From: Anaeromyxobacter dehalogenans 2CP-C
GTDB taxonomy: Bacteria > Myxococcota > Myxococcia > Myxococcales > Anaeromyxobacteraceae
DNA length: 64,000 nucleotides
Direction of reading: 5' to 3'
Assembly: GCF_000013385.1 (NCBI RefSeq)
Contig: NC_007760.1
Span: forward strand, 4,438,001 to 4,502,000
Part shown: positions 46,678 through 63,758 of the stretch, piece by piece
Layout: each line of letters begins with the position of its first letter
Position numbering within the stretch: position 1 is the stretch's first letter
Notes under the pieces: generated by a model
Databases searched by the model: none
What the model saw: only the letters and a program-made list of their open reading frames with translations
What the model was told of the DNA's origin: nothing
Made by a program: the position numbers and the translations under genes

Positions 46678-48204
46678 ATGCGAGCGAACCGGAAGGCGAC
46701 GGCGGCGAAGGGCAGCGCGCGCAGGACCGACGGCAGGCACGCGGCGCGCGACGAGGTGGTCGAGCGCCCCGCGCATCGCGGCGGGCGCGAGGGCGGCGCG
46801 CCGCGGGTGCGGGTGCGCATGTACCGGCCCGGCCTGGGCGACTGCTTCCTGCTCACGTTCCAGCCGGACACGGCCGACGAGGCCCACGTGCTCGTGGACA
46901 TCGGCACGGTGGGGCGGGGGGCCGGGGTCCCCATGGAGGAGATCGCGCGGGACGTCGCCGCGGTGACCGGCGGCCGGCTCGCCGCGGTGGTCGCGACGCA
47001 CGAGCACGCCGACCACCTCTCCGGCTTCCCGCTCCTCGCGGACGCCGGCGTCACCGCCGGCGAGGCCTGGGTGGCCTGGACCGAGGATCCCGCCGACCCG
47101 CTGGCGCGGCAGCTCCAGAAGTACCGCGGCGACCTGTTCGCGGCCGCGGCGCAGGCGGCCGCCGCGCTCGACGCCGCGCCGCGCGAGGGGCTGCTGGGCG
47201 TGCTCCGGGCCGGGGTGCGAGACCTCATGGCGTTCAACGGCTTCCTCCCGGGCGCGGCCGGCGCGTCGCTCGGCGCCGCCGCGAAGGGCGGCGGCCTGAA
47301 GAAGACCATCGACGCGATGATGCGCTCGGCGCTCGGGCTCGCGCGGCGGGGCCCGCGGTACCTGTCGCCGGGCGACGTCCTGGAGCCGGCCTGGGCCCCG
47401 GGCGTGCGCGTGTACGTCCTCGGCCCGCCGCGCGACGAGGCCGCCATCCGGCAGCTGGGCGGCCACGGCTCGCCGGACCTGTACGAGCTCGCCGCCGTGC
47501 TGGGCGTGGAGCTGCCGGGCACGCCCGGGGGACCGGCCGCGGGCGGGCCGGTGCAGCCGTTCGACGCGGCGCTCGGGGTGCCGCTCGACCGGGCCGGCGC
47601 CCTCGGCGGCGTGGCGGCGGCGTACGAGGCCGAGCCGTGGCGCCGCATCGACGAGGCGACGCTGGGGGCCGCGGCGGAGCTGGCGCTCCAGCTCGACAAC
47701 GCGACCAACAACACCAGCCTCGTGCTCGCGATCGAGGCCGGCGGCGAGGTGCTGCTGTTCCCCGGCGACGCGCAGCTCGGCAGCTGGCTGAGCTGGCCGG
47801 ACGTGACGTTCGCGGTGGACGAGGGCGGGCGGCGCCGCACCGTGACCGGCGAGGACCTGCTCCGGCGCGTCACGTTCTACAAGGTCGGCCACCACGCCAG
47901 CCACAACGCGACCTCGCGGCCGGGGCTGGAGCTGATGTCCGGCCGCAACCTCACCGCGTTCATCCCGCTCGACGAGGGCGTCGCGCGGCGGCGCGAGTGG
48001 CCCATGCCGGCCCGCACCCTGTTCGCGGCGCTGACGGAGAAGACGCGCGGGCGCGTGCTCAAGTCGGACGGGGACGCCGAGCAGGCTGCGCTGGCGCTGG
48101 CCGGCGTCTCGGTGGAGCGGCTGCACGTGGAGACCACGCTGCCGCTGGAGGCGCCCGCCGGGGCGCGGGAGCGGGCCGCGCCGCGGGCGCGCGCGCACGC
48201 GTGA
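46678..48204 (+). CDS. metallo-beta-lactamase-fold hydrolase
   Basis: A 508-residue protein with the MBL signature THEHADHLSG (His108, His110, Asp112, His113), LVDIGTVG as first strand, NATNNTSLVLAIE and LLFPGDAQLGSWL, and KVGHHASHNATS near the end, as in ComEC-like MBL hydrolases. An insertion of about 200 residues separates the first motif from the later ones. The basic N-terminal 40 residues are low complexity. ATG 46678 with ggagaggag upstream. It follows the subtilase-gluzincin gene by 24 bp and probably forms an operon with it; the joint function is not known to me. May hydrolyse a phosphodiester or ester (inference). Confidence 0.78.
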   Translation: MRANRKATAAKGSARRTDGRHAARDEVVERPAHRGGREGGAPRVRVRMYRPGLGDCFLLTFQPDTADEAHVLVDIGTVGRGAGVPMEEIARDVAAVTGGRLAAVVATHEHADHLSGFPLLADAGVTAGEAWVAWTEDPADPLARQLQKYRGDLFAAAAQAAAALDAAPREGLLGVLRAGVRDLMAFNGFLPGAAGASLGAAAKGGGLKKTIDAMMRSALGLARRGPRYLSPGDVLEPAWAPGVRVYVLGPPRDEAAIRQLGGHGSPDLYELAAVLGVELPGTPGGPAAGGPVQPFDAALGVPLDRAGALGGVAAAYEAEPWRRIDEATLGAAAELALQLDNATNNTSLVLAIEAGGEVLLFPGDAQLGSWLSWPDVTFAVDEGGRRRTVTGEDLLRRVTFYKVGHHASHNATSRPGLELMSGRNLTAFIPLDEGVARRREWPMPARTLFAALTEKTRGRVLKSDGDAEQAALALAGVSVERLHVETTLPLEAPAGARERAAPRARAHA

Positions 48205-48284: not shown

Positions 48285-49517
48285 TCAGAACCGGTGCGCG
48301 AAGCCCACGTCGAGCGTCCACGCCGTGAACGTGGTCTCGTACGCGGCGATCCCCTGCGCGAGGTTCGACCCGGTCTGCTTGCCCTCGGGCGCATAGGTCC
48401 CGCCGACGCTCACCGAGGTGCGGCCGAGCTCGAGGCCCACGCCCGCGGTGACGTGGTGCTCGAGCACCGCCGGGAAGGCCAGGTTCTCGAGCGCGCGGTC
48501 CGCGTTCAGCGGGCTCTTGCCGTAGTCGTAGCCGGCGCGGAGCTTCAGCCAGCTCGCCGCCGCGTACTCGGCGCCCACCTTCAGCACCCACTGGTCCGAC
48601 CAGTCGAGGTCGAGCTGCATGCCGCCGGTGAGCGCCGGGTCGGTCTGGAGGCGCGGCTGGTTCCGGCCGTTCGTCTGCGACCAGCGGATCCACTGCACGT
48701 CGGCGGCGACGGCGAGCCCCGCCACCGGCCGCACGCCGACGCCGAACGTCAGGAGGTCGGGCTGATCGAGCTCGAGCTTCTCGACGCCGGGCCCGACGTT
48801 CGCGGTGGTGCCGGTGGCCGGGTCCACCACGATGGTGTGCGCCGGGACCTCGTACTCGAAGTCCTGGAACCAGCCGCGGCTCTCGTAGGCGAGGCCGGCG
48901 GTGAGCCACTCGACGGGCCGCCAGGCGGCGCCCACGGTGAAGCCGCCGCCGTAGGAGATGGCGCCGTCGCGCGGCTGCAACCCGAGCCCGCCGCCGGCGG
49001 AGTACTCGAGCGTCGCGTACATGATGTTCGCCGTGACGCCGAGCGAGAGCCCGGGCATCACCTCGTACGAGACGCCCGGCGCGAGCCGGAGCTGGGAGTA
49101 GGACGTGTACAGCCGGCCGCCCAGCAGGTCCTGCGGGTAGTCCACGCCGAGGCCGGCGACGCCGTAGCCGCCCAGGCCGAACGTGAGCCGGTCGCCCAGC
49201 GGGACCACCAGGCCGAAGCCCGGGATCAGCGTCGGGCGGCGCGAGGAGGTCTGCTCCTGCCCCGAGGCGGCGCCGACCGCGCGGTAGCGCACGTCCGCGT
49301 CGAGGACGGTGATCCCGAAGTCCACCCGGCCGTCCAGCAGCGACAGGCCCGCCGGGTTGGTGATCACGGTGGCCGCGTCGAGCGGGAGCCCCACCGACGC
49401 GCCGCCCATCGCGCTCTGCACCGGCCCGAAGCCGATCATGCGCATCCCGTTCACCGCCCCTGCCTGCGACGCCCACAGCGCGAGCGCCGCGGCGACGATC
49501 CACCTGTTGCCGGTCAT
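48285..49517 (-). CDS. FadL/OmpP1/TodX-type outer-membrane transport protein
   Basis: A 410-residue protein with a signal peptide (WIVAAALALWASQAGA) and the family's opening MRMIGFGPVQSAMGGASVGL and ITNPAGLSLLDGRVDFGI. The rest is amphipathic beta strands ending in FAHRF, a C-terminal Phe as needed for barrel insertion. It should form a 14-stranded channel carrying hydrophobic molecules such as long-chain fatty acids or aromatics. Start ATG 49517 with agggaga upstream. In its leader are a hairpin (49573-49598) and a GGTCACCGTGACC palindrome. Confidence 0.87.
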   Translation of the reverse strand: MTGNRWIVAAALALWASQAGAVNGMRMIGFGPVQSAMGGASVGLPLDAATVITNPAGLSLLDGRVDFGITVLDADVRYRAVGAASGQEQTSSRRPTLIPGFGLVVPLGDRLTFGLGGYGVAGLGVDYPQDLLGGRLYTSYSQLRLAPGVSYEVMPGLSLGVTANIMYATLEYSAGGGLGLQPRDGAISYGGGFTVGAAWRPVEWLTAGLAYESRGWFQDFEYEVPAHTIVVDPATGTTANVGPGVEKLELDQPDLLTFGVGVRPVAGLAVAADVQWIRWSQTNGRNQPRLQTDPALTGGMQLDLDWSDQWVLKVGAEYAAASWLKLRAGYDYGKSPLNADRALENLAFPAVLEHHVTAGVGLELGRTSVSVGGTYAPEGKQTGSNLAQGIAAYETTFTAWTLDVGFAHRF

Positions 49518-50052
49518 CGTTGACTCTCCCTGGTTGTCGAACCCCGGGGCGCGCCCCTGCGGGGAACGTGCCGACCCTCCTGGCGGGATCGGAGGGTCTG
49601 CACTCCGGGTCACCGTGACCTTGCCCCGGCCCAGCTTCGCCTTCGCGCAGCGTGCGCGTCACGCTCCGTAAATGACCGTCACTCCGCGTCTTTCGGGTCG
49701 GCCGGGACTCTCCGGCTTCCGGGTGACGGCGCCGCGGACCCAGGGTCAACGGGCGAGCCCCCCGAACTCGGGATGGTCCAATGTGCCGAGCGGTCGCCTC
49801 CGCGGAGCGCTGCACCCACCACCCGCCACGGGACGAGGCCGCGCGCGACCTCCCGTGCGCGCACCAGCGCCGGCGGGGGTGCCGACGCGGTGATCGGGGT
49901 CAAGCGGCGGGCGAACGACCTGCCCGCCGCGCGGGCGGACCGCGTCCCTCGGATCGGGGGCGCGCCGATTGCACCGCCCGTCACCTGGACCGTCCGTCCG
50001 AGTTCGTCCGGCGGCGCCGCGGGGCGCGGCGCAGAGGGTGGGAGAACGTCAG
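49518..50052. other. intergenic region with palindromes upstream of the fadL-like gene
   Basis: 535 bp between the fadL-like gene (leftward) and the chemoreceptor (rightward). It contains GACCCTCC-tggcgggatc-GGAGGGTC (49573-49598, 8-bp stem) and GGTCAC-c-GTGACC (49608-49620). No gene recognised; both promoters must be here. Confidence 0.45.
49608..49620. promoter_or_regulatory. candidate operator palindrome upstream of the fadL-like gene
   Basis: Perfect 13-bp inverted repeat GGTCAC-C-GTGACC, about 90 bases upstream of the FadL-like start. Position and symmetry fit a regulator site, but the regulator is not identifiable. Confidence 0.3.
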
Positions 50053-51708
50053 ATGTCCACACTTCGCAACGCGAAGATCGCCACGCGGCTCACGGCGAGC
50101 TTCAGCCTGTACATGATCATCGCGGTCTTCGTGGCGGTCGCGCTGCTCTACGCGCTCGCCCGGGTGACCGATCGCGTCGCGGAGGTCTCGGCCGCCGCGC
50201 TCGACCGCGACGTCCTCGCCCAGCGCGCCGCGCTCGCCACCGGCGACGCCGGCGGGCTGCTCGCGCAGGCGATCGCGGCGCCCGACGACGCGCACCGCGC
50301 GCCGCCGCTCTCGCAGCTCGACCGGCTCCTCGACGACGACGCCGCCGCGGCGCGCACGCTCGCGGCCATGCCGCTCGACGCGGAGGAGCGCGCGCTGGTG
50401 GCCCAGGCGGAGGCGGCCGGCGCCCGGCTGCGCGACGCGGCCGCGCGCGCCCGGCGCACGCTGGGACAGCCGGACGACCCGGTGCGCGCGACCGACCTGC
50501 AGCAGCTGATCTCGGCGCGCGCGGACCTGCAGGGCGCCTGGCAGCGGCTGGCCGGGCTCGAGACCGAGCGCGTGCGGGAGGCCGCCGGGGCCGCCCAGGC
50601 CGACGCCGCCGTGGTGCGGCTCTGGATCTACGCGGGGCTCACGCTCGCGGGCACGCTCGTGATCCTCGCGAGCGTGACGCTCACCCGCAGCATCACCGTC
50701 CCGCTGCGCGCCACGGTGGTCCACGCCGAGCGCATCGCGCGCGGCGACCTGCGCGAGGAGGTCGAGGTGACCGGCCGGGACGAGATCGGCCAGCTCGAGC
50801 AGGCGATGCAGGCCATGACCGAGAAGCTGGCCGAGGTGATCGGCGAGGTGCGCGGCAGCACCGACGCGCTCACCTCCGCGTCGCAGCAGCTCTCCGCCAC
50901 CGCGCAGAACGTCTCGCAGGGCACCGGCGAGCAGGCCGCCTCGGTGGAGGAGACCACCTCCTCGCTCGAGGAGATGAGCGCGTCGATCACCCAGAACGCC
51001 GAGAACAGCCGCCAGACCGAGGCGGTGGCGCTCGAGGGGGCCCGGAACGCGCAGGAGAGCGGCGAGGCGGTGAGGCGCAGCGTGGAGGCGATGCGCACCA
51101 TCGCCGAGAAGATCTCGATCATCGAGGAGATCGCCTACCAGACCAACCTGCTCGCGCTGAACGCGGCCATCGAGGCGGCGCGCGCCGGCGAGCACGGCCG
51201 CGGGTTCGCGGTGGTCGCCACCGAGGTGCGCAAGCTGGCCGAGCGGGCGCAGAAGTCCGCCGGGGAGATCGGCGCGCTGGCCGGCTCGTCGGTGGAGGTC
51301 GCCGAGCGCTCCGGCGCGCTCCTCGCCGAGCTGGTGCCGGCGATCCGCAAGACCTCCGACCTGGTGCAGGAGGTGGCGGCCGCATCGCGCGAGCAGTCCA
51401 CCGGCGTCCGCCAGGTCACGAAGGCCATGGGCGTGGTGGACCAGGTCACGCAGCGGAACGCCTCCGCCGCCGAGGAGCTGTCGTCCACCGCCGAGGAGAT
51501 GTCCTCGCAGGCCGAGGCGCTCCAGCAGCTGGTGGCGTTCTTCCGGGTCCGCGAGGTCCACGCGCCGGCGCGGCCGCGGCCGCCGCTGGCCGCCCCGCGG
51601 CTGCCGCAGCCCTCGCCGGTGGCCGCCGCCGCGCTGGCCCCGAGCGCGCCGGGCCGGGTGAACGGAAGGACCGACGGGGCGCTGGAGAAGGAGTTCAGGC
51701 GCTTCTGA
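50053..51708 (+). CDS. methyl-accepting chemotaxis protein
   Basis: A 551-residue chemoreceptor. TM1 near 18-40 ([17 protein letters not shown]), a periplasmic four-helix-type sensor (about 45-190), TM2 near 195-220 ([16 protein letters not shown]), HAMP, then a signalling domain with [35 protein letters not shown] and [15 protein letters not shown]. The tip is standard for CheA/CheW contact. The protein ends LEKEFRRF without a CheR-binding pentapeptide. ATG 50053 with gggagaacgt upstream. Its 3' end overlaps the convergent PPTase gene by 14 bp. Ligand unknown. Confidence 0.92.
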
Positions 51709-52414
51709 GCGGCTCGGCGGGCGCGTCCGCGGTCACCGCCACCAGCAGGTAGGGCCCGGCCGCCCCGATCCACGCGCGGAGCGCGGCGCGGACCGGGCCC
51801 TCCAGCGCCAGCGCGAACCGGCGCGCGCGCAGCCCGCCCAGCCGCTCCGGCGGGGCGGGCGCGCGGATGGAGAGGCGCACCGCGCGCAGCGGGACGGTGA
51901 GCCCGGTCCCGAGCCACTTCACCACCGCCTCCTTCGCGCCGAACGCGGCGCAGGCGGCGAAGCCGGCCTGGGGCTCGCCCAGCGCCCGCTCGAAGGCGCG
52001 CAGCTCCTCCGGCCAGAACGCCTCGCGGTGGAACGCGCCGTCGAGCGCCTCCACCCGCACCAGGTCGAGCCCCACCGGCGCGTGGAACGCCGCCGCGGCG
52101 GCGACGCCCTCGGTGTGCGTGATGGAGACGTACGCGGGGAGGCGCGCGCCGCGGGCGTCGAGCGCCACCGGCTGGGCCGTCCCGGCCGCCGCGTCGCGCA
52201 GCACCGCCGCGCACGCGCCCGGGTCCCGCAGCAGCCGGTCCACCGCCGCCCGGGCCGCCGTGCGCCCGGCCGCGAACTCGAGGCGTCGCCGCGCGGTGGC
52301 CGCCGGCGGGAGCAGGGCGCGCTCGGCCGCGGGGAGCCTCGCCAGCGCCGCCTCCGCCGCGGCCACCGGGCGGAACGCGATCACCGGCGCGGCGTCCCCC
52401 GCGGCCGCGGTCAT
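51695..52414 (-). CDS. 4'-phosphopantetheinyl transferase
   Basis: A 239-residue Sfp-type PPTase. Motifs: [37 protein letters not shown] (the metal Asp/Glu site) and [14 protein letters not shown] (the WxxKEAxxK equivalent). It transfers phosphopantetheine from CoA to carrier proteins. ATG 52414 overlaps the TGA of the second synthase (ATGA), so it is the last gene of the synthase operon and should serve the ACPs of that system. Corresponds in role to PfaE of polyunsaturated-fatty-acid clusters. Confidence 0.88.
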
Positions 52415-55400
52415 GCGGCGACCTCGACCGCGGCGATGCGCCGGAGCTCCAGCCCGGTCACCTCGAGCAGCTCCTCGCCGTCCTCGCCCGCCACCACGAG
52501 GTCGTAGAACACGCGCGGCGCGTCCTCCGCGGTCCGGCGCGCCTCGACGCGGGCCCGCTCGCCGGCGCGGAGCGCGCGCCCGGCGCGCAGCCGCTCGACG
52601 GCGATGGGCACGCACACCCAGCCCTCGCCGTAGCCCTCCAGGCTGCCGGCCACCTGGAACGCGGCGTCGAGCAGCAGCGGGTCCACGCGGAACGCGGGCG
52701 CCCGCACGCCCGGCACGGCGGCGCGCAGGTCGGCCGGCTCCACCGTTGCCCGCGCCGCGCCGCCCAGCAGCTCCAGCCAGCGCACGCGGCAGAACAGCGG
52801 CCCGAGCTCCACCGGATCGCGCGAGAGCCGGTAGAACGAGCGCGCCCGCACCAGCCCGTCGCTCTCGGGCAGCGCGTGCCGCCGCGCCTCCGGCGTCCCC
52901 GTCTCGAGGCGCACCGCCGCGCGCGCGTGGACGCGCTCGCTCCCGCCGGGCACCGCGACGGGCAGGCTCGAGACGAGCCGCACCCCGAGGACGCCGCCCT
53001 CCCCGGGCTCGACCACCGCGCGCACGTCGAGCGCGGCGCGGGCGAGCGCCACCGGCGCCTCGATGCGGAAGCCGGTCACCTCGGCCACGCGCTCGCCGGG
53101 CCGCGCCAGCGCCGCGGCCTCCGCGAGCAGCTCCAGCGCGAACGCGCCGGGCAGGATGGGCCGGCCGTCCACCCGGTGCTGCGCCAGGAACGGCGCGTCG
53201 GCCCGGAGCCGCGTCCGCGCCACCAGCCCGCCGCCCGGCCGTGGCTCGGCCGCGTCCACCAGCGGCGAGGCGCTGCGGACCAGCGGGACGCCGCCGTCGT
53301 CGAGCAGCGCCACCGGGCGCGCGCCGTCGGCGGAGGCGCCCAGGAACGGCCAGGCGTGCAGCATGCGCTCGGAGACGAGCAGCGTCTCCGGCGCGTCGCC
53401 CGAGCGCAGCTCGGACACGAACCAGTAGCGCCCCTCCTCCGGCGAGATGGAGGTGACGCCCATGGCGTCGAGCCCGGCGGCGATGTCCGGGTTGCCGGCG
53501 GCCCAGCCGATCTCGCGCCAGGCCGGCCAGTCGATGGTGACGCAGTGGACCGGCCGGCCGCGCCGCGCCATCCACGCCGGCAGCAGCGCGGCCATCAGCG
53601 CGTTCGCGCCGGCGTAGTCGGTCTGCCCGCGGTTGCCGAAGCGCGCCACGCCCGAGCCGAACGCCACCACCGCCCGCAGCGGCTCGTCGCGCGTCGCGTC
53701 GAGCAGGTGCAGCAGCCCGGCCACCTTGGAGTCGAGCACCCGCGCCACGTCCGCGGCGGTCTTGCCGGGCACGCTGGCGGACCGCTCCACCATGGCCCCG
53801 TGGCCCAGCACCGTGATGGCGCCGTGCCGCGCGCGCACGTCCGCGACCACCGCCCGCACCGAGGCCGGATCGGTCACGTCGCAGACCGCGTACGCGAGCG
53901 GGAGCCCCTCGCGCCGCGCCCGCTCCAGGTTGCGGTGCAGCTCGCGGTCCCGCGCCAGCGCGTCCATCTCGCGCGCGAAGCGGACGGGCGTCAGCCCGGG
54001 CTCGCCGCGGCGGCGGACGATCTCGCGGCGCCGGAACTCGGCGAACGCGCGGTCGTCCATGGCGAGGTGCGGGAGCGCGGGGTCGGGCAGCGGCGTGCGG
54101 CCCGTGACCACCACCTTCGCCCCGAGCCGCGCGATCGCGCAGGCGCACTCGAACACCACGCCGCGCCCGCCGCCCGAGAACAGCAGCACGTCCCCCGCGC
54201 CGAGGTCGCGCCGCGCCGGCGCGCCGGCCTCGAGCGGCGCCTGGCGCAGCGCCACCACCGTCCGGCGGCCGCCGGCGAAGCCCACCTGCACGCGCTCGTT
54301 GCCGTCCTCCAGCTCGGCGACGAGCGCGCCCGCCAGGGCGGCGGCGTCCACCGCGGGCGGGAAGTCGAGCGCCTTCACGAGCGCCCCGGGCACCTCCTGC
54401 TTCAGCGCCAGCGCGAGGCCGTGCTGGAACGCGCCGGAGGGATCCCCGGCGGGCGCGCCGAGGCCGAGCGTGCCGCCCATGGACGTGACGGCCACGTACG
54501 CGCCGGGCCGCTCCGGGGTGGAGGCGAGGAGCGCGTCGTAGATCCGGCGAACGAGCGCGTAGGAGGCCTCGGCGGCCGCGCGGGCCGCGCCGGCGATCGC
54601 GCCGCCCTCCGCCATCAGGTCGAGCCGCGCGGGCTCGCCGAACGCGGTGAGATCCACGAGCAGCTCGGGCGCGCCGTGCGACGTCACCGCGGCCTCCACC
54701 GCGTCGGGCGTGGCCGCCAGCGCCTCGGCGCCGCGGACCCGCAGCGCCGCCGCGACCGGCCCCGCCGGGCCGCCGGCCGGGCCGACCACGAGCGCCCGCC
54801 GACCGGCGAGCGACCAGCGCGCGGCTCGCGCCGGCAGCGCCGCGGTCACCGCCGCCGGCACCAGGCGGTCGGCGGCGAGGCCGTCGCCGGGCGGGATCAC
54901 CGCGGGACCGGTGGCCGCCGCGGGCGCGGCCGCCTCCTCCAGGATCACGTGGTGGTTCACGCCGGCCATGCCGAACGTGCTCACCGCGGCGCGGCGCGGG
55001 TGGCCGGCGGTGGCGGGCCAGGGGCGCGCCTCGGTCGCGAGCTCCGCCGGGATGGCCTCGAGGTGCAGCTCGGCGTCGAGGTCGCGGGTCGCGTTGGACG
55101 GCGGGAGCACGCGGCGGTGCAGCGCCAGGGAGGCGCGCACCAGCGCGATGAGCCCGGCCGCGCTGGTGGTGTGGCCCACCTGCGACTTCGAGGCGGAGAG
55201 CACGAGCGGGGTCGCGCGCGGCAGGCCGCCGTACACCGCCGCGTAGGTGGCGACCTCGGTGCGGTCGCCGAGCCGGGTGGCGGGGCCGTGCGACTCGAGC
55301 AGGTCCACCGTCTCGGGCCGCACGCGCGCATGCGCGAGCGCGCGGCGCAGCGCGAGCTGCTGGCCGCTGGTGCTGGGCGAGTAGATGGAGAGCCCGCGGC

Positions 55401-57657
55401 CGTCGCTCGAGATCCCGTGGCCGCGGACCACCGCGTAGACGCGGTCGCCGTCGGCCCGGGCGTCGGCGAGGCGCTTCAGCGCCACGGCGCCGGCGCCCTC
55501 CGCCGGCACGAAGCCCTCGGCGTCCACGTGGAACGGCAGGCCGCCGCGCGGCGAGAGCGCGCCGAGCAGGCCGAGCGCCACGTAGTACTCGGGGACCAGG
55601 TTGTAGGCCACGCCGCCGGCCAGCGCGACGTCCACCTCCCCGCGCGCCAGCGCCTCGCAGCCGGCCGCCACCGCCGCCAGCGACGACGCGCAGGCCGCGT
55701 CCACCGTGAGCGGGACGCCGCCCAGCCCGAACGCGGCGGCCACGCGCGCGGTGAGCGCGTAGCCGGAGGTCGCCGCGAGCGCCTGGGGCCAGCGGGCCTC
55801 GCCGCGCGCGTCGAAGACGGCGCGGGCGCGGGCGACCACGCCGGCGATGCAGGCCTCGTCGAGCCCCGCCTCGCGCATGGCGTCCTCGGCGAGCGCGAGC
55901 GTGTTCCCGAACGCGACGCGGGTCTCGACCGCCGCCTCGCGGGCGCGGAGCGAGAGCTGCCCGAACACCGCCTGGCCGCGCAGGCCGCGCGCGCGGGCGG
56001 CCTCCCAGCCCGCGTCGGCGAGCGCCTGCTCGGCCGCGAGCAGCGAGATGGGCACCGCGCCGTCCAGCGCCGCCGCCTCCTCGGGGTCGATCCCGTAGCG
56101 CTCGGGCCGGAACGGCGGCGGCGACACGGTGGCGGCGAGCCGGGTGCGGAACGCGTGCGCCAGCTCGGCGTTCGCGCCCACCAGGGCGTCCACGTCGAAG
56201 CGCGAGCGAGGCAGGTCGAGCACCGGGTCGGCGTGGTCGAGCACGTTGCGCCAGTAGGCGTCCACGTCGTTCGCGCCCGGCACGACCAGCCCCACGCCCA
56301 CGATGGCGTAGCCCTGCTCGTCGCGCCGGCGGCGCGGGCGCGGGGGCGCCGCGGCGGGCCGGGGCGCGCCGGGCGCGGCCAGCACCGCGTGGTAGGCGAC
56401 CGGCTCGGGGCCGCCGTCGCTCACGCCGATGCGGCGCGGCGCGCCGGCCACCTCGGCCGCGGGCCAGGCGCCGCGGTGCAGCGCGAGCGCGGCCTCGACG
56501 AGCGCGACCATCCCGGTCGCGCCCTGGAGGAAGCCGGTGGTGGGCACGCACGAGCGGGTGGGCACGGGGGCCTTTCGCGCGCGGTACGCGGCGGCGAGCC
56601 CGGCCGCCTCGCCGGCGTCGCTGGCGAGGCCGGCGGCGCGCGACACCACCGCGTCCACCTCGGCCGCCCCGATGCCCTCCACCGCGGCGCAGGCCGCCCG
56701 CTCCACGCAGCGCGCCAGCGCGCCCGGGTCGCGGGCGCCCGGCTCGGCGGCGCCGCCGAGCCGCTCCACCAGCGCGTACACCCGCGCGCCGGCGGCGTCG
56801 TCCTCGCGCCGGAGCACCAGCGCGGCCGCGCCCTCCCCCGGCAGCGTGCCCGCCGCCGCCGGGTCGAACGGCCGCGGGACGTCGTCGGCCAGCTCGCCGC
56901 GGTGCGCGAGCGACAGCAGCACCGAGGGCGTCACCAGCGGCGACACCGCGCACACCACCGCGACGTCGCACTCCCCGCGCCGGAGCGCCTCCACCGACTC
57001 GTACAGCGCGGCGAGCGAGGACGCGCTGCCCACGTCCACCGCCGCGTGGCCGCCGCGGAAGTCGAACAGGTTGGCGGCCCGGCCGGCCACGATGCTCGCC
57101 GAGGTGAAGAGCGAGTCGGGCTCGATGGCCGGGCAGGCCAGGTCCACCACGCGATCGAGGATGGCGAGCGCCAGCTCGCGGCGGTCCGGGGCCTCGCGCG
57201 CCAGCGCGTCGCCGATGGGGATGGCGAGGCGGTTGCGGCGGATGCGCCGCATCGGATCGGTCCGCGGATCCGGGCCGAGCGTGGTGGCGGCGATGCGGAT
57301 CTGCCCCCGCTCCACCGGGGCGGCGCCGGGCTTCATGCCGGCGTCGGCGAGCGCCTCGGCCATGGTCTGGAGCGCGAGCTTCTCGGCGAGGTGCAGCCGC
57401 TCCACCTGGAGCGGCGGGACGCGCAGCGCGCGCCAGTCGAGCGGCACGTCGTCGAGCAGCGCCGCGCGCGGCGCCCGCCCGCCCAGCAGCGCGCCCGCCT
57501 CCGGGCCGAACGCCACCGGGTCGAAGCGCGCCGCCGGCACGCGCGCGAACGGCGCCGGCCGCCGCGCCGCGAGCCGCGTCCAGAGCGCGTCCAGGCCGGC
57601 GGCGCCGGCGAGCCGGCACCCCATCCCCACCACCGCGATCCGCGCGCCCTGGCTCAC
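52411..57657 (-). CDS. Pfa-like multidomain synthase 2 (KS0-KS-KR-DH)
   Basis: 1748 residues. Order: (1) ketosynthase-like domain, about 5-425, where the nucleophile motif reads VDVGSASSL, Ser211 replacing Cys, and HGTGT is missing; (2) ketosynthase, about 447-908, with Cys656 (TVDAACASSL), His790 (ESHGPAT) and His829 (KSQVGHT); (3) ketoreductase, about 940-1430, with GGGRGV (1162-1167), Ser1335, Tyr1348 (TDYAGAN) and Asn1352; (4) hot-dog dehydratase, about 1480-1740, with His1494 (QHRVDGRPILPG) and Asp1664 (LLLDAAFQ). GTG 57657 overlaps the first synthase stop (GTGA) and TGA overlaps the PPTase start. It needs the carrier domains of synthase 1. It should extend and partly reduce an acyl chain (inference). 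Confidence 0.9.
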   Translation of the reverse strand: MSQGARIAVVGMGCRLAGAAGLDALWTRLAARRPAPFARVPAARFDPVAFGPEAGALLGGRAPRAALLDDVPLDWRALRVPPLQVERLHLAEKLALQTMAEALADAGMKPGAAPVERGQIRIAATTLGPDPRTDPMRRIRRNRLAIPIGDALAREAPDRRELALAILDRVVDLACPAIEPDSLFTSASIVAGRAANLFDFRGGHAAVDVGSASSLAALYESVEALRRGECDVAVVCAVSPLVTPSVLLSLAHRGELADDVPRPFDPAAAGTLPGEGAAALVLRREDDAAGARVYALVERLGGAAEPGARDPGALARCVERAACAAVEGIGAAEVDAVVSRAAGLASDAGEAAGLAAAYRARKAPVPTRSCVPTTGFLQGATGMVALVEAALALHRGAWPAAEVAGAPRRIGVSDGGPEPVAYHAVLAAPGAPRPAAAPPRPRRRRDEQGYAIVGVGLVVPGANDVDAYWRNVLDHADPVLDLPRSRFDVDALVGANAELAHAFRTRLAATVSPPPFRPERYGIDPEEAAALDGAVPISLLAAEQALADAGWEAARARGLRGQAVFGQLSLRAREAAVETRVAFGNTLALAEDAMREAGLDEACIAGVVARARAVFDARGEARWPQALAATSGYALTARVAAAFGLGGVPLTVDAACASSLAAVAAGCEALARGEVDVALAGGVAYNLVPEYYVALGLLGALSPRGGLPFHVDAEGFVPAEGAGAVALKRLADARADGDRVYAVVRGHGISSDGRGLSIYSPSTSGQQLALRRALAHARVRPETVDLLESHGPATRLGDRTEVATYAAVYGGLPRATPLVLSASKSQVGHTTSAAGLIALVRASLALHRRVLPPSNATRDLDAELHLEAIPAELATEARPWPATAGHPRRAAVSTFGMAGVNHHVILEEAAAPAAATGPAVIPPGDGLAADRLVPAAVTAALPARAARWSLAGRRALVVGPAGGPAGPVAAALRVRGAEALAATPDAVEAAVTSHGAPELLVDLTAFGEPARLDLMAEGGAIAGAARAAAEASYALVRRIYDALLASTPERPGAYVAVTSMGGTLGLGAPAGDPSGAFQHGLALALKQEVPGALVKALDFPPAVDAAALAGALVAELEDGNERVQVGFAGGRRTVVALRQAPLEAGAPARRDLGAGDVLLFSGGGRGVVFECACAIARLGAKVVVTGRTPLPDPALPHLAMDDRAFAEFRRREIVRRRGEPGLTPVRFAREMDALARDRELHRNLERARREGLPLAYAVCDVTDPASVRAVVADVRARHGAITVLGHGAMVERSASVPGKTAADVARVLDSKVAGLLHLLDATRDEPLRAVVAFGSGVARFGNRGQTDYAGANALMAALLPAWMARRGRPVHCVTIDWPAWREIGWAAGNPDIAAGLDAMGVTSISPEEGRYWFVSELRSGDAPETLLVSERMLHAWPFLGASADGARPVALLDDGGVPLVRSASPLVDAAEPRPGGGLVARTRLRADAPFLAQHRVDGRPILPGAFALELLAEAAALARPGERVAEVTGFRIEAPVALARAALDVRAVVEPGEGGVLGVRLVSSLPVAVPGGSERVHARAAVRLETGTPEARRHALPESDGLVRARSFYRLSRDPVELGPLFCRVRWLELLGGAARATVEPADLRAAVPGVRAPAFRVDPLLLDAAFQVAGSLEGYGEGWVCVPIAVERLRAGRALRAGERARVEARRTAEDAPRVFYDLVVAGEDGEELLEVTGLELRRIAAVEVAA

Positions 57658-60600
57658 GCCACGCCCTCGCTGGCGCGGCCGTCGCCGACGCGCCGGCTGT
57701 ACCGCCGCCAGGCGCGCTCGGCGGCCTCGCCGATGGGCCCGGCGGCCGCGGCGGTCGCGACGGGCCGGCCGCACACGCCGCGCAGCTCGGCCACGAGCGC
57801 CTCGCCCGCCACCACGGTCACGTCGGCGCGCCAGAGGCCGCCCTCCGGCGCCACCATCTTCACGTGGAGCTCGAAGGACGCGCCCGGCGCCGGCGGCGCG
57901 TGCACGCGCACCTGCTCCACCGAGCAGACCGCGTGCGGCACCCCGGTCACGCCGAGCCAGGCGAACGAGGCGAGCTCGCCCGCCGCGGCGAGCGCCGCCG
58001 CCAGCCGCTCGACGTCGTCGCCGTCCCCGGCGTCCGCCCCGCCGGCCGCCACCATGAAGCCGTCCGAGCGCGCCCAGGCGAGCACGCCGTCGGCCGCGCC
58101 GAGCACCGGGGCGAGCGCGTCGCGCAGCTCCGGCCCGCTCGCCGCCCGGTCGCGCCGCTCCGGCGCGATGGCGCGCAGGATCTCGGCCGGCGCCGCGGCG
58201 GCCGGCCCGGGCGCGCCCACGCGCACCGTGGCCTCGGCCTCGCTCTCGCCCAGGATGGCGCGCAGCTTCAGCGCGCCGTCGGCGGCGTGCGCCACGTCCA
58301 CCAGCGGCTCGCGCGCGGGGGCCTCCTCGTCCGAGGCGCGCAGCTCGAGGTGCGCGACCTCGCGGACGCCGTCGCCCGCCGCGCCGAGCAGCGCCTCCAG
58401 CAGGCGGCGCGAGGCGGCCACCGCCGGCCCGCGCGCGTCGTTCACCACCGGTGCAGCGGCAACGGGCGCGGCGTGCGGCGTGGGGATGGGGCGGGGGGCG
58501 CCGCCGCCGGGCGGGCGGGGGCCGCCGCCGGGGCCGTCCGGATCCGAGGGCGCGAGCCGGCGGGCGAGCGCGTCGGCCGCCTTGCGGATGGTGTTCGCGT
58601 CGCGGAGCTTGAACCCGGGGTCGGGCGGCAAGCCGAAGCGCTCGCGCGCGGCGGCGAGCACCGCCACCTGCTTCACGGTGTCGATGCCGAGCTCGGCCTC
58701 GAGGTCGAGGTCGGCGTCGAGCATCTCCTCCGGGTAGCCGGTCCGCTTCACCAGCTCCTCCACGATCGCCGCGCGCACCTGCTCGCGGGCGGCCTCGAGC
58801 GACAGGCGCGGCGGGGTGCCGCGGCCGAGCGCGTTCGGGGGCGGCGGCGGGAGCGGCAGCGCGTGCGCGGCCGCGGTCGCCGGGGCCGCCTTCGGGGCCG
58901 GCGCCGCGGGGGCGGCGGTCGCCACGGCGGGCGCGACGCCGCCGCGCCCGGCCTGCACGCGGCCGGCGAGCCACGCGGTCGCCTTCGCGATGGTGTTCGC
59001 GTCGCGGAGCTTGAACGCCGGATCCGGCGGGACGCCGAGGCGCTCGCGCACCGCGGCCAGCACCGCGACCTGCTTCACCGTGTCGATGCCGAGCTCGGCC
59101 TCGAGGTCCAGCTCGGGGTCGAGCATCTCCTCCGGGTAGCCGGTGCGGCGCGCGTACTCGGCGACGAGCGCGCGCCGGACGTCTTCCGCGCCGGCGGGGG
59201 TCGGGGCGGGCGCGGCGGCCACCGGCGCGAGCGCGGGCGCGAGCGCAGCCACGGGCGCGACGACCGGCGCGGGAGCGGCTGCGGCCGCCGCCACCGGGGT
59301 GGGCGGCACCTCGGGGGCCGGCGCGGCGGCCGACGCGGACGCGGCGAGCGCGATCGCCGGCGCCGCGAGCGCCGGGTGCTCCGGCGCGGCCCCGGCGAGC
59401 AGGCCGTCGATGAGGTCGCGGATCCCGCGCAGCAGCGCCACCGCGTAGGCCGGCATCGCCTCCGCGGACGGAGCCGCGCCCGGGCCCTGCGGCACGGGCC
59501 GGATCTCGGGGGTGCTGCGGGACGGGGTGCTCATCGCGGGGTCCTCCTCCAGGACTGCAGCGCCGTGGACGAACAGGCAGGCGAGCGCGCGCTGGAGCTG
59601 CTCGACCTCGCCGACCTTTGGGTGAAGCGTGGCGTGCGCGACGTGCGGGCGATCGCCGAGGATCTGCCCGACGAACGTGGTGAGCGGCCACTTGGGCCCG
59701 CACTCCACGAACACGCGCACGCCGCGCGCGTGGAGCGCCTCGACCGCCGGCCGGAGCCGCACCGGCTCGACGAACTGGCTGGCGAGGTGCTCGGCGAAGC
59801 GCTCCGGCGGGACGCCGGCGAGGCTCCGCCCGGTGACGGTGGAGACGATCTCCACCTCCGGCGCGCGGAACGGGATGGTGCGGAGCAGGCGCAGGTAGCG
59901 CGGCTGCGCCGCGGCGATGAGCTGCGAGTGGTAGCCGTGCGAGACCGCCAGCACGGCGGCCTCGACGCCCTCGTCGGACGCCCGCCGGAGCAGCTCCGGC
60001 ATGGCGCGGCGATCGCAGGAGACGATGCAGGCCCCCGGCCCGTTGTCGGCGGCGAGCGCGGCGTAGCCGGGGAGCCCGGCCGTGAGCCGCGCGGCGCGCT
60101 CGGCGCCGCAGGTGAGCGCGACCATCTTGCCCGGGTCGTCGCCGGTGAGCGCCAGCACCGACAGCGTGCGCTCGCGGACCACCGCGAGCCCGTCCTCGAG
60201 CGACATGGCCCCGGCCGCCACCAGCGCCGCGAGCTCGCCCGCGCTCTGGCCCATGAGCGCCCGCGGCGCGAGGCCGTGACCCGCGAGCAGCCGGTGCAGC
60301 GCCACGTTCACGACGAACACCGCGCAGTGGATGTCCTCGTCGCTCTGCGCGTACGCGTCGGGCCGGTCGGTGAAGAACGAGGGCCGCAGCGGCCGCCCGC
60401 ACAGCGCCTGGTAGGCGCGGTCGGCGGCGTCGAGCGTGCCGCCCAGCGACGGGAACGCGGCGAGCGCGTCGCGCAGCATGTTCGGGTACTGCGGCCCCTG
60501 GCCCGGGAACGTGACCGCCACCTGCGCCGGCGCGCGCGCGTCGGCCGCGTGCACGCCCTGGGCGCGGAGCAGCCCGAGGTCGAGGCCGCCGCGCACCGCG

Positions 60601-63600
60601 CGGGTGAGGTGCGCCGCGCGCGCGGCGAGCGCGGCCGGGTCGGCCGCCACCACCGCGGCCCGGAACGGCGCGCCCGAGGCCGCCCGCCGCGAGGCCCGGA
60701 GCGCCTCGAGGTAGTCCTCGGGGCCCGCGTCGCGGAGCGCGCCCGCGAGCCGCTCCAGCGCCTCGGCGCAGCCGGCCGCGTCCTCGGCGCCGGCGGCGGC
60801 GATGGCGAGCGGCCGCGCCGCGAACGGTGACGCGGCGACCGCTGGGATCGGGGACTTCACGGAAGGAGCACGCGGCGCGACCGGGGCGACGCGGGCCGGC
60901 GCGCCCGGGCGGTACTCCTCCACGAGCGCGTGCACGTTCGTGCCGCCCAGGCCGAAGCCGGAGACGCCGGCCCGCCGGGGCGCGCCGTCCGGCCCGGTCC
61001 AGCGCTCGGCGCGCGTGACGACCTCGACCGGGCCCGCGCCGAAGTCGATGGCCGGGTTGGGCCGCTCGACCTCGAGCGACGGCGGCAGCAGGCCCTCGCG
61101 GACCGCGAGCACCGCCTTCAGCAGCGCCGGGGCGCCGGCCGCGCCGAGCAGGTGGCCGATGTTGGACTTCACCGAGCCGATGCGGAGCGGCCGGGCCCGG
61201 CCGCGCCCGTACGCGCGCACGCACGCCTCGACCTCGGTCCGGTCGCCGAGCGCGGTGCCGGTGCCGTGGCACTCCACGTAATCGACGAGCGCGGGGTCGA
61301 TCCCGCCCGCCTCCAGCGCGCGCCGCATCGCGAGCGCCTCGCCCTCGAGCGACGGCGCGAACACCGACTTGCCCTTGCCGTCGCTGGAGGCGCCCACGGC
61401 GCGCACCAGCGCGTGGACGCGCTGCCCGTCGCGCTCGGCGTCGGCGAGCCGGCGGAGCACCAGGATCCCGGCGCCCTCGCCCGGCACGAACCCGTCGGCG
61501 CGCGCGTCGAACGGCGTGCTCCCGGTGGCGGAGAGCGCGTTGAAGCGGCAGCACCCCACGTAGAACTCGGGCTGCATGTCGGCCCACACGCCGCCCACCA
61601 GCGCCGTGTCGCAGGTGCCGTCGCGGAGCGCCTGCACCGCCGCCTGCAGCGCGGCGAGCGTCGAGGCGCAGGCCGACTCGACGGTGAGCTGCGGGCCGCG
61701 CAGGTCGAAGCGGCGCGCGATCCGCGCGGCCATGACGCTGCCCAGCCAGCCGGGCAGCGCGTCCTCCGAGAGCGGGGGCAGCTCGCGCTCCAGCCGCGCG
61801 CGGGCGGCCTCGAGGAGCGCGCGCGCCTGCGGGCCGGCGAGCCCGGCGGCCGGCGCCGCGGCCTCCACCTCGGCGGCGAGGCGGGCCAGGTGGAAGCGCA
61901 CCTCGGCGAGGAGCTTGCGCCCCTGGCACGCCATGAACCCGAGGAACACGCCGGTGCGGCCGCGATCCCAGGCCCCGCGCTCCAGGCCCGCGTCCGCGAC
62001 GGCCTCCTCGGCCACGCGCAGCGCGAGCAGGTGCGCGGGGTCCACCGCCGCGCGGGCGGCGGGCGGGATGCGCCAGCGCGCGTCCGCCTGCGCGGGCGCG
62101 TCGGTGAAGCCGCCGAGCCGCGTGTAGCTGCGCTCGAGCCGCGCGGCGTCCGGGTGGCAGTAGGTCGATGCGTCCCAGCGGCTGGCGGGGACCTCGCGGA
62201 TCGACGACCGGCCGTCCTGCAGCGCGCGCCAGAACGCCGGGACGTCCTCGGCGCCGGGGAGCGTCGCGCCCAGGCCGATCACCGCCAGCGGCACGGCCTC
62301 GGCCGGCGCGCGCCACGCCGCGACGGAGGCGGGGGCGGAGGCCGACGCGGGCGACGGGGCGGCGAGCACCGCGTGGTAGGCGAGCCCGCCGAGCGACACC
62401 GCGCTCACCGCGGCGCGCGCGGCGTCGCAGCCCGCGCGCGGGCGGAGCGGCGCGGGCGCGCGCGGCACCTCGAACGCGGTCTCCTCGAGGCGGAGGTCCG
62501 GGTGCGGGCGGGAGAACCCGGCCTGCGGCGGGACCACGCCGTGCTCGAGCGCCAGCACCGTGCGCAGCATGCCCACCGCGGCGCTCGCGCCGCGCAGGTG
62601 GCCCACGTGCGCCTTGGCCGAGCCGATGGCCACCGGGCCGGGGACGCCGCGGTACCCCTGCGCCAGCGCGGCGAGCTCGGTGGCGTCGCCGCGCGGGGTG
62701 CCGGTGGCGTGGCACTCCACGAAGCCGACGGAGGCGGGATCGACCGCGCCCTCCTCGTGCGCCCGGCGGATGGCGAGCGCGAGGCCGTCCGGGTGCGGCG
62801 CGAGCGGCGACGCGGCGGCGCCGTCGCAGGCGCCGGCCACGCCGAGCACCACGGCCAGGACGCGATCGCCGTCGCGGAGCGCGTCGTCGAGCCGCTTCGC
62901 GGCGAACATCACCGCGCCCTCGCCCGGCAGCGTCCCGTCGGCGGCGGCGTCGAACGGGCGCGGCCGGTGGGCCGACAGCACGCCCATGCGCGAGAGCGCC
63001 ACCAGCTCGGCCGGCGAGAGCAGCTCGCTCGCGGCGCCGAACAGCGCGCAGTCCACCGTCCCGTCCCGGAGCGCGCGCGCCGCCACGTCCAGCGCGGCGA
63101 GCCCGGAGGCGAAGCCGGCGTCCACCGCCGCGTGCGGGCCGCGCAGGTCGAGCAGCATGCCCACGCGCCCGGCCGCGATGCTGGCCGCCGAGTTCACCAC
63201 CGGCTCCTCGCTGGCCGGCCGCAGGCGCGCCTCCAGCGAGGCGCGCGCCGACGCGAGCGCCGCCTCGGCCGCGGCCGCGGGCACGCCCGCCTCGCCGGCG
63301 CCCTCGCGCACCGCCGCGGCGAGCGCGTCGAGCCGGACGCGGAGCCCGGTGTCCGGCCGCCAGCCGAGGCCGGTCGCGCCGAGCCACACGCCGGTGCGCT
63401 CGCGCGGCAGCGCCTTCACGGCGGCCAGCGCCTGGCGCCCGGCCTCCAGGACCTGGAGCTGCGCGGGGTTCATCGCGTCCGCGTCCGCCGGCGGCATCCG
63501 GAAGGCGCGCCAGTCGGGGCGGAACCCCGTCACCTGCGCCGCGGCCGGGAGCCGGCCGAGCCCGAGCCGCTCCCACTCCCACGCCCCGCCCGCGAGCGGC

Positions 63601-63758
63601 TCGAACGCGTCGCGGCCCGACTGCATGGCGTCCCAGAACGCCTCGACGCTGCCTGCGCCCGGAAGCACACATCCGACGCCGATGAGGGCGATCGGGACCC
63701 TGGGTGTTCCCCGCTGCTCCGAAGTGGTCACGTCGGAGAGGGTGGCGGACAACGTCAC
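57654..63758 (-). CDS. Pfa-like multidomain synthase 1 (KS0-KS-AT-ACP-ACP-DH-like)
   Basis: 2034 residues, starting GTG 63758. Order: (1) KS-like domain, about 20-465, with VDAGFASGL, Phe216 in place of Cys, but His350 and His387 kept; (2) KS, about 490-945, with Cys697 (TVESACAST), His831 (ECHGTGT) and His869; (3) acyltransferase, about 1080-1400, with Ser1172 (GQSAGE) and His1277 (SHGYHS); (4) two carrier domains, 1525-1600 and 1655-1735, each with LGIDTVKQ (Thr1560, Thr1694 where Ser is normal); (5) hot-dog-like dehydratase region, about 1780-2005. Ala/Pro linkers separate the carriers. Closest in layout to PfaA of polyunsaturated fatty-acid synthases, but with one KR missing here and the second half on the next gene. 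No thioesterase or enoyl reductase. Confidence 0.9.
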   Translation of the reverse strand: MTLSATLSDVTTSEQRGTPRVPIALIGVGCVLPGAGSVEAFWDAMQSGRDAFEPLAGGAWEWERLGLGRLPAAAQVTGFRPDWRAFRMPPADADAMNPAQLQVLEAGRQALAAVKALPRERTGVWLGATGLGWRPDTGLRVRLDALAAAVREGAGEAGVPAAAAEAALASARASLEARLRPASEEPVVNSAASIAAGRVGMLLDLRGPHAAVDAGFASGLAALDVAARALRDGTVDCALFGAASELLSPAELVALSRMGVLSAHRPRPFDAAADGTLPGEGAVMFAAKRLDDALRDGDRVLAVVLGVAGACDGAAASPLAPHPDGLALAIRRAHEEGAVDPASVGFVECHATGTPRGDATELAALAQGYRGVPGPVAIGSAKAHVGHLRGASAAVGMLRTVLALEHGVVPPQAGFSRPHPDLRLEETAFEVPRAPAPLRPRAGCDAARAAVSAVSLGGLAYHAVLAAPSPASASAPASVAAWRAPAEAVPLAVIGLGATLPGAEDVPAFWRALQDGRSSIREVPASRWDASTYCHPDAARLERSYTRLGGFTDAPAQADARWRIPPAARAAVDPAHLLALRVAEEAVADAGLERGAWDRGRTGVFLGFMACQGRKLLAEVRFHLARLAAEVEAAAPAAGLAGPQARALLEAARARLERELPPLSEDALPGWLGSVMAARIARRFDLRGPQLTVESACASTLAALQAAVQALRDGTCDTALVGGVWADMQPEFYVGCCRFNALSATGSTPFDARADGFVPGEGAGILVLRRLADAERDGQRVHALVRAVGASSDGKGKSVFAPSLEGEALAMRRALEAGGIDPALVDYVECHGTGTALGDRTEVEACVRAYGRGRARPLRIGSVKSNIGHLLGAAGAPALLKAVLAVREGLLPPSLEVERPNPAIDFGAGPVEVVTRAERWTGPDGAPRRAGVSGFGLGGTNVHALVEEYRPGAPARVAPVAPRAPSVKSPIPAVAASPFAARPLAIAAAGAEDAAGCAEALERLAGALRDAGPEDYLEALRASRRAASGAPFRAAVVAADPAALAARAAHLTRAVRGGLDLGLLRAQGVHAADARAPAQVAVTFPGQGPQYPNMLRDALAAFPSLGGTLDAADRAYQALCGRPLRPSFFTDRPDAYAQSDEDIHCAVFVVNVALHRLLAGHGLAPRALMGQSAGELAALVAAGAMSLEDGLAVVRERTLSVLALTGDDPGKMVALTCGAERAARLTAGLPGYAALAADNGPGACIVSCDRRAMPELLRRASDEGVEAAVLAVSHGYHSQLIAAAQPRYLRLLRTIPFRAPEVEIVSTVTGRSLAGVPPERFAEHLASQFVEPVRLRPAVEALHARGVRVFVECGPKWPLTTFVGQILGDRPHVAHATLHPKVGEVEQLQRALACLFVHGAAVLEEDPAMSTPSRSTPEIRPVPQGPGAAPSAEAMPAYAVALLRGIRDLIDGLLAGAAPEHPALAAPAIALAASASAAAPAPEVPPTPVAAAAAAPAPVVAPVAALAPALAPVAAAPAPTPAGAEDVRRALVAEYARRTGYPEEMLDPELDLEAELGIDTVKQVAVLAAVRERLGVPPDPAFKLRDANTIAKATAWLAGRVQAGRGGVAPAVATAAPAAPAPKAAPATAAAHALPLPPPPPNALGRGTPPRLSLEAAREQVRAAIVEELVKRTGYPEEMLDADLDLEAELGIDTVKQVAVLAAARERFGLPPDPGFKLRDANTIRKAADALARRLAPSDPDGPGGGPRPPGGGAPRPIPTPHAAPVAAAPVVNDARGPAVAASRRLLEALLGAAGDGVREVAHLELRASDEEAPAREPLVDVAHAADGALKLRAILGESEAEATVRVGAPGPAAAAPAEILRAIAPERRDRAASGPELRDALAPVLGAADGVLAWARSDGFMVAAGGADAGDGDDVERLAAALAAAGELASFAWLGVTGVPHAVCSVEQVRVHAPPAPGASFELHVKMVAPEGGLWRADVTVVAGEALVAELRGVCGRPVATAAAAGPIGEAAERAWRRYSRRVGDGRASEGVA

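Follow-up and report, generated by a model that had tools for sequence, protein, structure and literature searches.

Threonine at the phosphopantetheine site of tandem carrier proteins in a Pfa-related synthase operon of Anaeromyxobacter dehalogenans

Among described systems, the PfaA-E synthases offer a close comparison for a three-gene operon of the soil bacterium Anaeromyxobacter dehalogenans 2CP-C located within bases 4438001-4502000 of the complete 5,013,479-bp genome (a stretch of 64,000 nucleotides, referred to below as the window). Like PfaA-E, the operon specifies an iterative type I set with tandem acyl carrier proteins (ACPs), a ketosynthase (KS) pair, a ketoreductase (KR), a dehydratase (DH) and a phosphopantetheinyl transferase (PPTase), and a model of one of its KS didomains is like the KS-chain length factor (CLF) of PfaC. 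Unlike PfaA-E, it has the KS pair in inverted order, with a KS fold lacking the active Cys (KS0) ahead of a live KS; there is no PfaD in the genome, the ACPs carry Thr in place of Ser and, in Pfam terms, the DH is of the PS-DH rather than the FabA-like kind. The KS0-KS order, the lack of PfaD and the Thr in the tandem ACPs rule out a canonical Pfa synthase (Type A/B). We put at about 0.6 the probability that this is the operon of an iterative type I lipid/polyketide synthase of a separate, Pfa-related class, built on KS0-KS pseudo-heterodimers and with Thr-ACPs armed by its own PPTase.

Shulse & Allen (2011) distinguished 20 types in 86 genomes, and the accessible part of their paper describes Type R as KS-MAT-CLF-ACP(3-6)-KR (MAT, malonyl acyltransferase) plus PPTase, found in Acidobacteria, Elusimicrobia and Chloroflexi and with an unknown product (PMC3098273). 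The words Anaeromyxobacter, serine and threonine are absent from the main text (PMC3098273). With Type R, as far as that part describes it, the operon shares an adjacent PPTase with the hShxH (P1b') motif, tandem ACPs, an acyltransferase (AT) and a KR (PMC3098273). It differs in having two proteins, KS0-KS pairs instead of KS-AT-CLF, and two ACPs only. Single-chain loci of the form KS-AT-KS'-ACP(Thr)n-KR-DH plus PPTase, which we read in Myxococcota, Acidobacteriota and Chloroflexota, match the layout given in that part of the paper and two of its phyla; by analogy, the genomes named as Type R may have Thr carriers too. Enediyne and polyene iterative polyketide synthases have the order KS-AT-ACP-KR-DH-PPTase. 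Set side by side with them by domain description only, the operon has the same activities and likewise no enoyl reductase (ER), but it has two KS pairs on two proteins and tandem Thr-ACPs. Finally, Corallococcus-type clusters (L039, L049, L171 and L177) share KS0-KS pairs and Thr-ACPs with the operon and differ in a multi-ACP-KR protein and, in L039, in three KS0-KS pairs and an AAT-DH protein.

Both ACPs of the window read ELGIDTVKQ, whereas the motif in the Pfa-type loci of this set is LGIDSIKR or a near variant. Alignment to solved ACPs places Thr on the phosphopantetheine Ser in both, a feature that a preliminary description of this DNA, made from the sequence alone, had overlooked. In the model of the second ACP (mean predicted local distance difference test score, pLDDT, 94.5), Thr43 opens the second long helix, and a Foldseek search with this model returned mostly ACP structures among the matches listed (template modelling score, TM, up to 0.79/0.83, best E 1.3e-3). 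Pfam (PF00550) and Foldseek agree on an ACP fold, and the alignment together with the model rules out a misaligned ACP. Five PP-binding matches are present in the genome; two are the window ACPs, and the other three are Ser-type.

The carrier site was read in 42 loci, our own included, and was Thr in 122 carriers, Pro in four, Gln in one and Ser in none, that is, Thr in 122 of 127 readable carriers; four carriers were left unread (two at contig ends, the others where the alignment breaks off in a decayed first carrier). As controls, two loci with GIDSIKR had Ser in 4/4 carriers. Since 34 of the 42 loci were picked by a GIDT match, each of these contains at least one Thr by selection; the eight loci not picked by a Thr pattern contributed 23 Thr, 3 Pro, 0 Ser and 1 unread site. 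Excluded from the count were four of the 38 stretches fetched on a GIDT match, which had no synthase domain (L188, L202, L203 and L204). The recurrence in 42 loci rules out a one-off oddity or a sequencing error.

At the level of whole genomes, 47 of the 195 Myxococcota genomes contain the strict pattern GGNATHGAYACNRTNAARCAR, and 35 of these have two or more copies on a single contig; the reversed control gave no match. A looser pattern, which admits every WSN codon at the site and ends in CR, was tallied over the listed rows; its reversed control gave 3 in Myxococcota, among the matches listed. In 297 genomes of Acidobacteriota (the phylum of L051), it gave 68 sites (reversed control, 5): Thr-Q/H 46 in 19 genomes, Thr-R 3, Ser-R 8, Ser-Q/H 3 (one with Met next) and other or stop 8. 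In 251 genomes of Chloroflexota (the phylum of L071), there were 38 sites (reversed control, 0): Thr-Q/H 13 (one with Met), Ser-R 19 (one with Met), Ser-Q/H 1 (with Met) and other 5. Tandem GIDT motifs occur in all three phyla, and all four Thr codons are used. That Thr is a mere property of the KQ motif is ruled out by GIDSVKQ Ser carriers in family f4; this family includes G095, whose carrier sites match those of the L049 genome, Corallococcus terminator (among the matches listed). A single GIDSVKQ match recurs in many genomes of this family (again among the matches listed), and in L215, L216 and L217 it is a Ser carrier in a frame of 514-539 aa.

The VSITH motif of the operon PPTase fits hShxH, the P1b' motif in the accessible part of Shulse & Allen. 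PF01648 has two matches in the genome, one in a 139-aa frame and the other being the operon PPTase. PPTase linkage was examined in 41 Thr-type loci (own and L036 included), of which 12 end too soon. In 27 of the 29 loci with room, a PPTase is fused, lies inside the operon or is found within ~1 kb; in the remaining two, the PPTase is 5.7 kb off (L189) or absent from the 3.1 kb available (L185).

The second hallmark of the operon is the KS pair. Alignment of the Cys-His-His sites bears out the earlier statement that each protein starts with a dead KS followed by a live one, and with it the inverted order within an otherwise Pfa-like set. The first KS of protein 1 (KS0a) has Phe for Cys and keeps both His, the first KS of protein 2 (KS0b) has Ser for Cys and has lost both, and the second KS domains (KSa and KSb) keep Cys-His-His. 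KS0b aligns with the PfaC KS over residues 193-406 (39.4 bits) and with the PfaC CLF over 7-427 (37.9 bits). An AlphaFold2 model of KS0a-KSa (predicted TM score 0.90, mean pLDDT 80.4) had 6riw (PfaC KS-CLF) at Foldseek rank 1, covering both domains (TM 0.76/0.78, root-mean-square deviation 5.3, 978 columns). As modelled, the dead and live KS folds would pair in one chain as in PfaC KS-CLF, with the live site second.

KS phylogeny was approached with a quick maximum-likelihood tree (98 rows, no outgroup, midpoint root, no enediyne KS). One group (19 rows, SH-aLRT 94, below the tool's 95 mark) unites KS0a and KS0b with the Corallococcus-type KS0s, and another (19 rows, SH-aLRT 99) contains the live KSs paired with them; KS domains of Type R-like loci cluster by themselves (99), and Ser-ACP Pfa rows stand apart (one change, support only 54). 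Neither pair of the window fell with the sampled Ser-ACP Pfa KS or CLF rows, a result on the side of the preliminary description. The separate grouping of the KS0s and of their live KSs suggests that the pair was duplicated as a unit, and the simplest reading of these sequences is that it arose once, dead domain first, and was then duplicated. In a KS0 scan of 77 loci, a Cys-less KS precedes a live KS in L049 and L050, and L048 contains a KS0 alone. The Cys-less rule has an exception in L174, where the third of the first-position KS domains retains Cys, with Tyr in place of the second His. The Acidobacteriota-type relatives L051, L191 and L205 are of the KS-KS-AT form, their first KS having Cys-His-His, and in L053 these residues are Cys-Gln-His; a live KS as the ancestor of KS0 would agree with this but is not proven by it.

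KSQ domains are decarboxylating loading domains, and KS0a could be a priming or gatekeeping domain of a similar kind rather than a CLF, with only KS0b being CLF-like. The histidines speak for it: KS0a keeps both in 6/6 loci of the same layout (own, L168, L169, L172, L173 and L186), whereas KS0b lacks one or both of them in 6/6. We nevertheless regard this alternative as doubtful, given that the residue at the Cys site is aromatic (Phe or Tyr) and not Gln, that KS0a groups with KS0b (SH-aLRT 94) and that the KS0a-KSa model pairs like KS-CLF. A priming role and a CLF-like partnership of KS0a are not exclusive.

Under the proposed Thr-armed synthase, each KS0 and the following live KS would act as an intramolecular, KS-CLF-like pseudo-heterodimer with the live site second. 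AT would load malonyl units onto the two ACPs, whose Thr residues would have received 4'-phosphopantetheine (4'-PP) from the operon PPTase, the central step; the KS0-KS pairs would extend the chain, KR would reduce it and DH dehydrate it. Because there is no dedicated ER, the chain would retain double bonds or hydroxyls, so that a polyene or a hydroxylated chain is the probable product. Enzymes encoded elsewhere may release the chain and carry out any enoyl reduction.

The preliminary description had seen neither an ER nor a thioesterase, and the wider search agrees with it: a search of the complete genome with the PfaD-type enoyl reductase model (TIGR02814) gave no match, and none of the scanned neighbour ORFs (open reading frames) is named as ER or thioesterase, house-keeping enoyl reductases and ole genes not having been searched for. 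Its statement that the chain is released by an unknown route stands. Trans-acting reductases occur in other systems. With these and with the lack of PfaD in mind, one might suppose that the operon makes a fatty chain of the usual Pfa-like kind, either saturated or hydroxy-substituted, that a house-keeping enoyl reductase acts in trans and that there is nothing special about the carriers; this leaves the conserved Thr unexplained, and we consider it improbable. A candidate domain for chain release is encoded in L039 (8422-10557), where an AAT acyltransferase domain is joined to a DH.

Carrier proteins are generally taken to bear phosphopantetheine on serine, with S36T as a dead control in E. 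coli; the Thr change kills the E. coli carrier yet recurs across a family of related bacterial synthases. Several observations weigh against the Thr-armed, KS0-KS-based synthase. According to the accessible text of one study, E. coli ACP S36T cannot be modified with 4'-PP and is not functional (PMC3340395), and a similarly accessible passage of another, citing earlier work, states that changing Ser38 of spinach ACP-I to Thr or Cys abolished function (PMC9310384); these failures indicate that Thr is no easy substitute for Ser. Pro or Gln at the site of five carriers means that some carriers do decay. In the PPTase tree (27 and 8 rows, after 18 of the 26 on the Ser side had been set aside as near-copies or short rows), Thr- and Ser-linked enzymes are not cleanly parted (2 changes), and the operon PPTase might serve some other carrier, possible targets being the Ser carriers in frames at 1339727 and 455410. 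As to the KS pairs, the four window KS domains are of odd composition in a tree whose root is arbitrary, and 6riw is not among the 50 matches listed by VIA-align, which are single-domain matches.

The failed Ser-to-Thr variants and the Pro or Gln sites in some Corallococcus-type carriers would also fit Thr-ACPs that are never armed and serve as docking or scaffold domains, the chain being held on AcpP or another carrier in trans. A site freed of function should drift, and the conserved Thr (122 against no Ser, in tandem in three phyla and with four codons in use) therefore counts against this alternative, as does the PPTase linkage in 27/29 loci; we find it unlikely. Either the linked PPTases arm Thr or a synthase family has unarmed carriers, and on the sequences we favour the former because of the conserved Thr and the linked PPTase. 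We lean, if by a small measure, towards a large class of lipid synthases in at least three phyla that uses Thr for phosphopantetheine and has a linked or fused, Thr-specialised PPTase.

If true, carrier proteins would have a second attachment chemistry in nature, and Thr-directed PPTases would be usable as an orthogonal pair for labelling and engineering. Otherwise, entire synthases operate without armed carriers of their own; either outcome would be surprising. The same loci display a KS-CLF-like pair in reverse order, apparently duplicated as a unit. In the open-access literature, largely without subscription papers and in part as excerpts, no paper describing a phosphopantetheine site with Thr came up. 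In the accessible parts of these sources, S36T is employed as a site variant (PMC13343975), and a 2026 survey of hybrid lipid synthases gives a conserved Ser in chitinimine ACPs.

The features of the operon are collected in Table 1.

Table 1. Genes and domains of the synthase operon (positions in the window)
Feature	Position	Strand	Remarks	Basis
Synthase protein 1, KS0-KS-AT-ACP-ACP-C-terminal region	57654..63758	minus	2034 aa, GTG start	ORF and Pfam
KS0a	62319..63704	minus	condensing-enzyme fold, Phe at active Cys (VDAGFASGL), both His present	alignment
KSa	60879..62306	minus	Cys-His-His intact	Pfam and alignment
AT (PF00698)	59439..60533	minus	GQSAGE motif	Pfam; motif read in sequence
ACP1	58947..59195	minus	ELGIDTVKQ, Thr codon 59079-59081 at phosphopantetheine-Ser position	alignment
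ACP2	58557..58805	minus	Thr codon 58677-58679 at phosphopantetheine-Ser position	alignment and structure model
Protein 1 C-terminal region	57657..58508	minus	no Pfam match	
Synthase protein 2, KS0-KS-KR-DH	52411..57657	minus	1748 aa	ORF and Pfam
KS0b	56338..57648	minus	Ser at active Cys, both His lost	alignment
KSb	54898..56325	minus	Cys-His-His intact	Pfam and alignment
KR plus stretch before it	53458..54867	minus	YAGAN motif	Pfam
DH (PKS_DH_N + PS-DH)	52414..53337	minus	HxxxGxxxxP and DAAFQ motifs	Pfam
PPTase	51695..52414	minus	239 aa, KEA motif and VSITH	Pfam ACPS; 4PPT_N below cut-off

ORF reading confirms the three minus-strand genes joined by GTGA and ATGA overlaps. Pfam finds two KS, an AT and two PP-binding domains in protein 1, and two KS, a KR and one PKS_DH_N + PS-DH domain in protein 2, where a canonical PfaC has a DH/isomerase pair; the domain order given earlier (KS0-KS-AT-ACP-ACP, KS0-KS-KR-DH and PPTase) is upheld, except for the supposed DH-like C-terminus of protein 1, where Pfam and hhalign found no identity. 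We take GQSAGE in protein 1 to be the AT motif, and YAGAN and HxxxGxxxxP with DAAFQ in protein 2 to be those of KR and DH. PF00109 has 10 KS matches in the genome; five of the six above 45 bits are in proteins 1 and 2, and the sixth, at 3105816-3106547, adjoins a Ser-type ACP gene.

Nine Anaeromyxobacter genomes, own included, were sampled. One further genome holds the operon (L036, ~84-97% by domain), another has pieces of protein 1 (L037 and L038), and no close KS0 match was found in the other six. In Anaeromyxobacter sp. PSR-1 (G001), KS0 is 98% identical; its contigs contain only KS0, KS and AT pieces of protein 1 and have no GIDT match. The P0002 scan of genome contigs found no relatives. 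The layout KS0-KS-AT-ACP(Thr)2 / KS0-KS-KR-DH / PPTase is present in five Myxococcota loci outside Anaeromyxobacter, namely L168, L169, L172 and L173 (family f4) and L186 (another Myxococcota family), and in one more within the genus, and KS0-KS is, on these sequences, a conserved unit. The preliminary description knew of no characterised product for this layout, and none came up in the open-access literature; the layout is not unique. In L168, L169, L172 and L173, a stand-alone gene of ~308-318 aa lies between both synthase genes, where our protein 1 has its C-terminal region, a likeness of position.

In those single-chain forms whose second KS (KS') is covered, this domain retains Cys and both His, though Shulse & Allen call the domain at that position CLF; motifs like VNAACAS, SHETYTP and GHPM are found in L175, L179, L181, L187 and L190. 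Just upstream of single-chain Thr-ACP synthases lies a gene of the acyl-CoA dehydrogenase family by Pfam (L190, 2478-4316; L193, 2844-4556), and ORFs like it are present in L175, L179, L181, L185, L187, L189, L192 and L199.

Upstream of the operon are a glyoxalase-like gene, a WYL-domain regulator and a PsiE-family gene. Downstream follow, in this order, a convergent chemoreceptor-like gene, a FadL/TodX-type outer-membrane protein, an MBL-fold protein (46678-48204), which could be a hydrolase, and a subtilase-type protein. The FadL/TodX-type transporter gene (48285-49613) is on the operon strand, two genes downstream. The chemoreceptor-like gene (49969-51708) comes directly after the PPTase gene, and a similar gene is likewise placed in L168 (490-2532), L169 (16789-19179), L172 (17593-19425) and L173 (17479-19407), the likeness covering the C-terminal half of our protein (24-30% identity over 255-295 columns).

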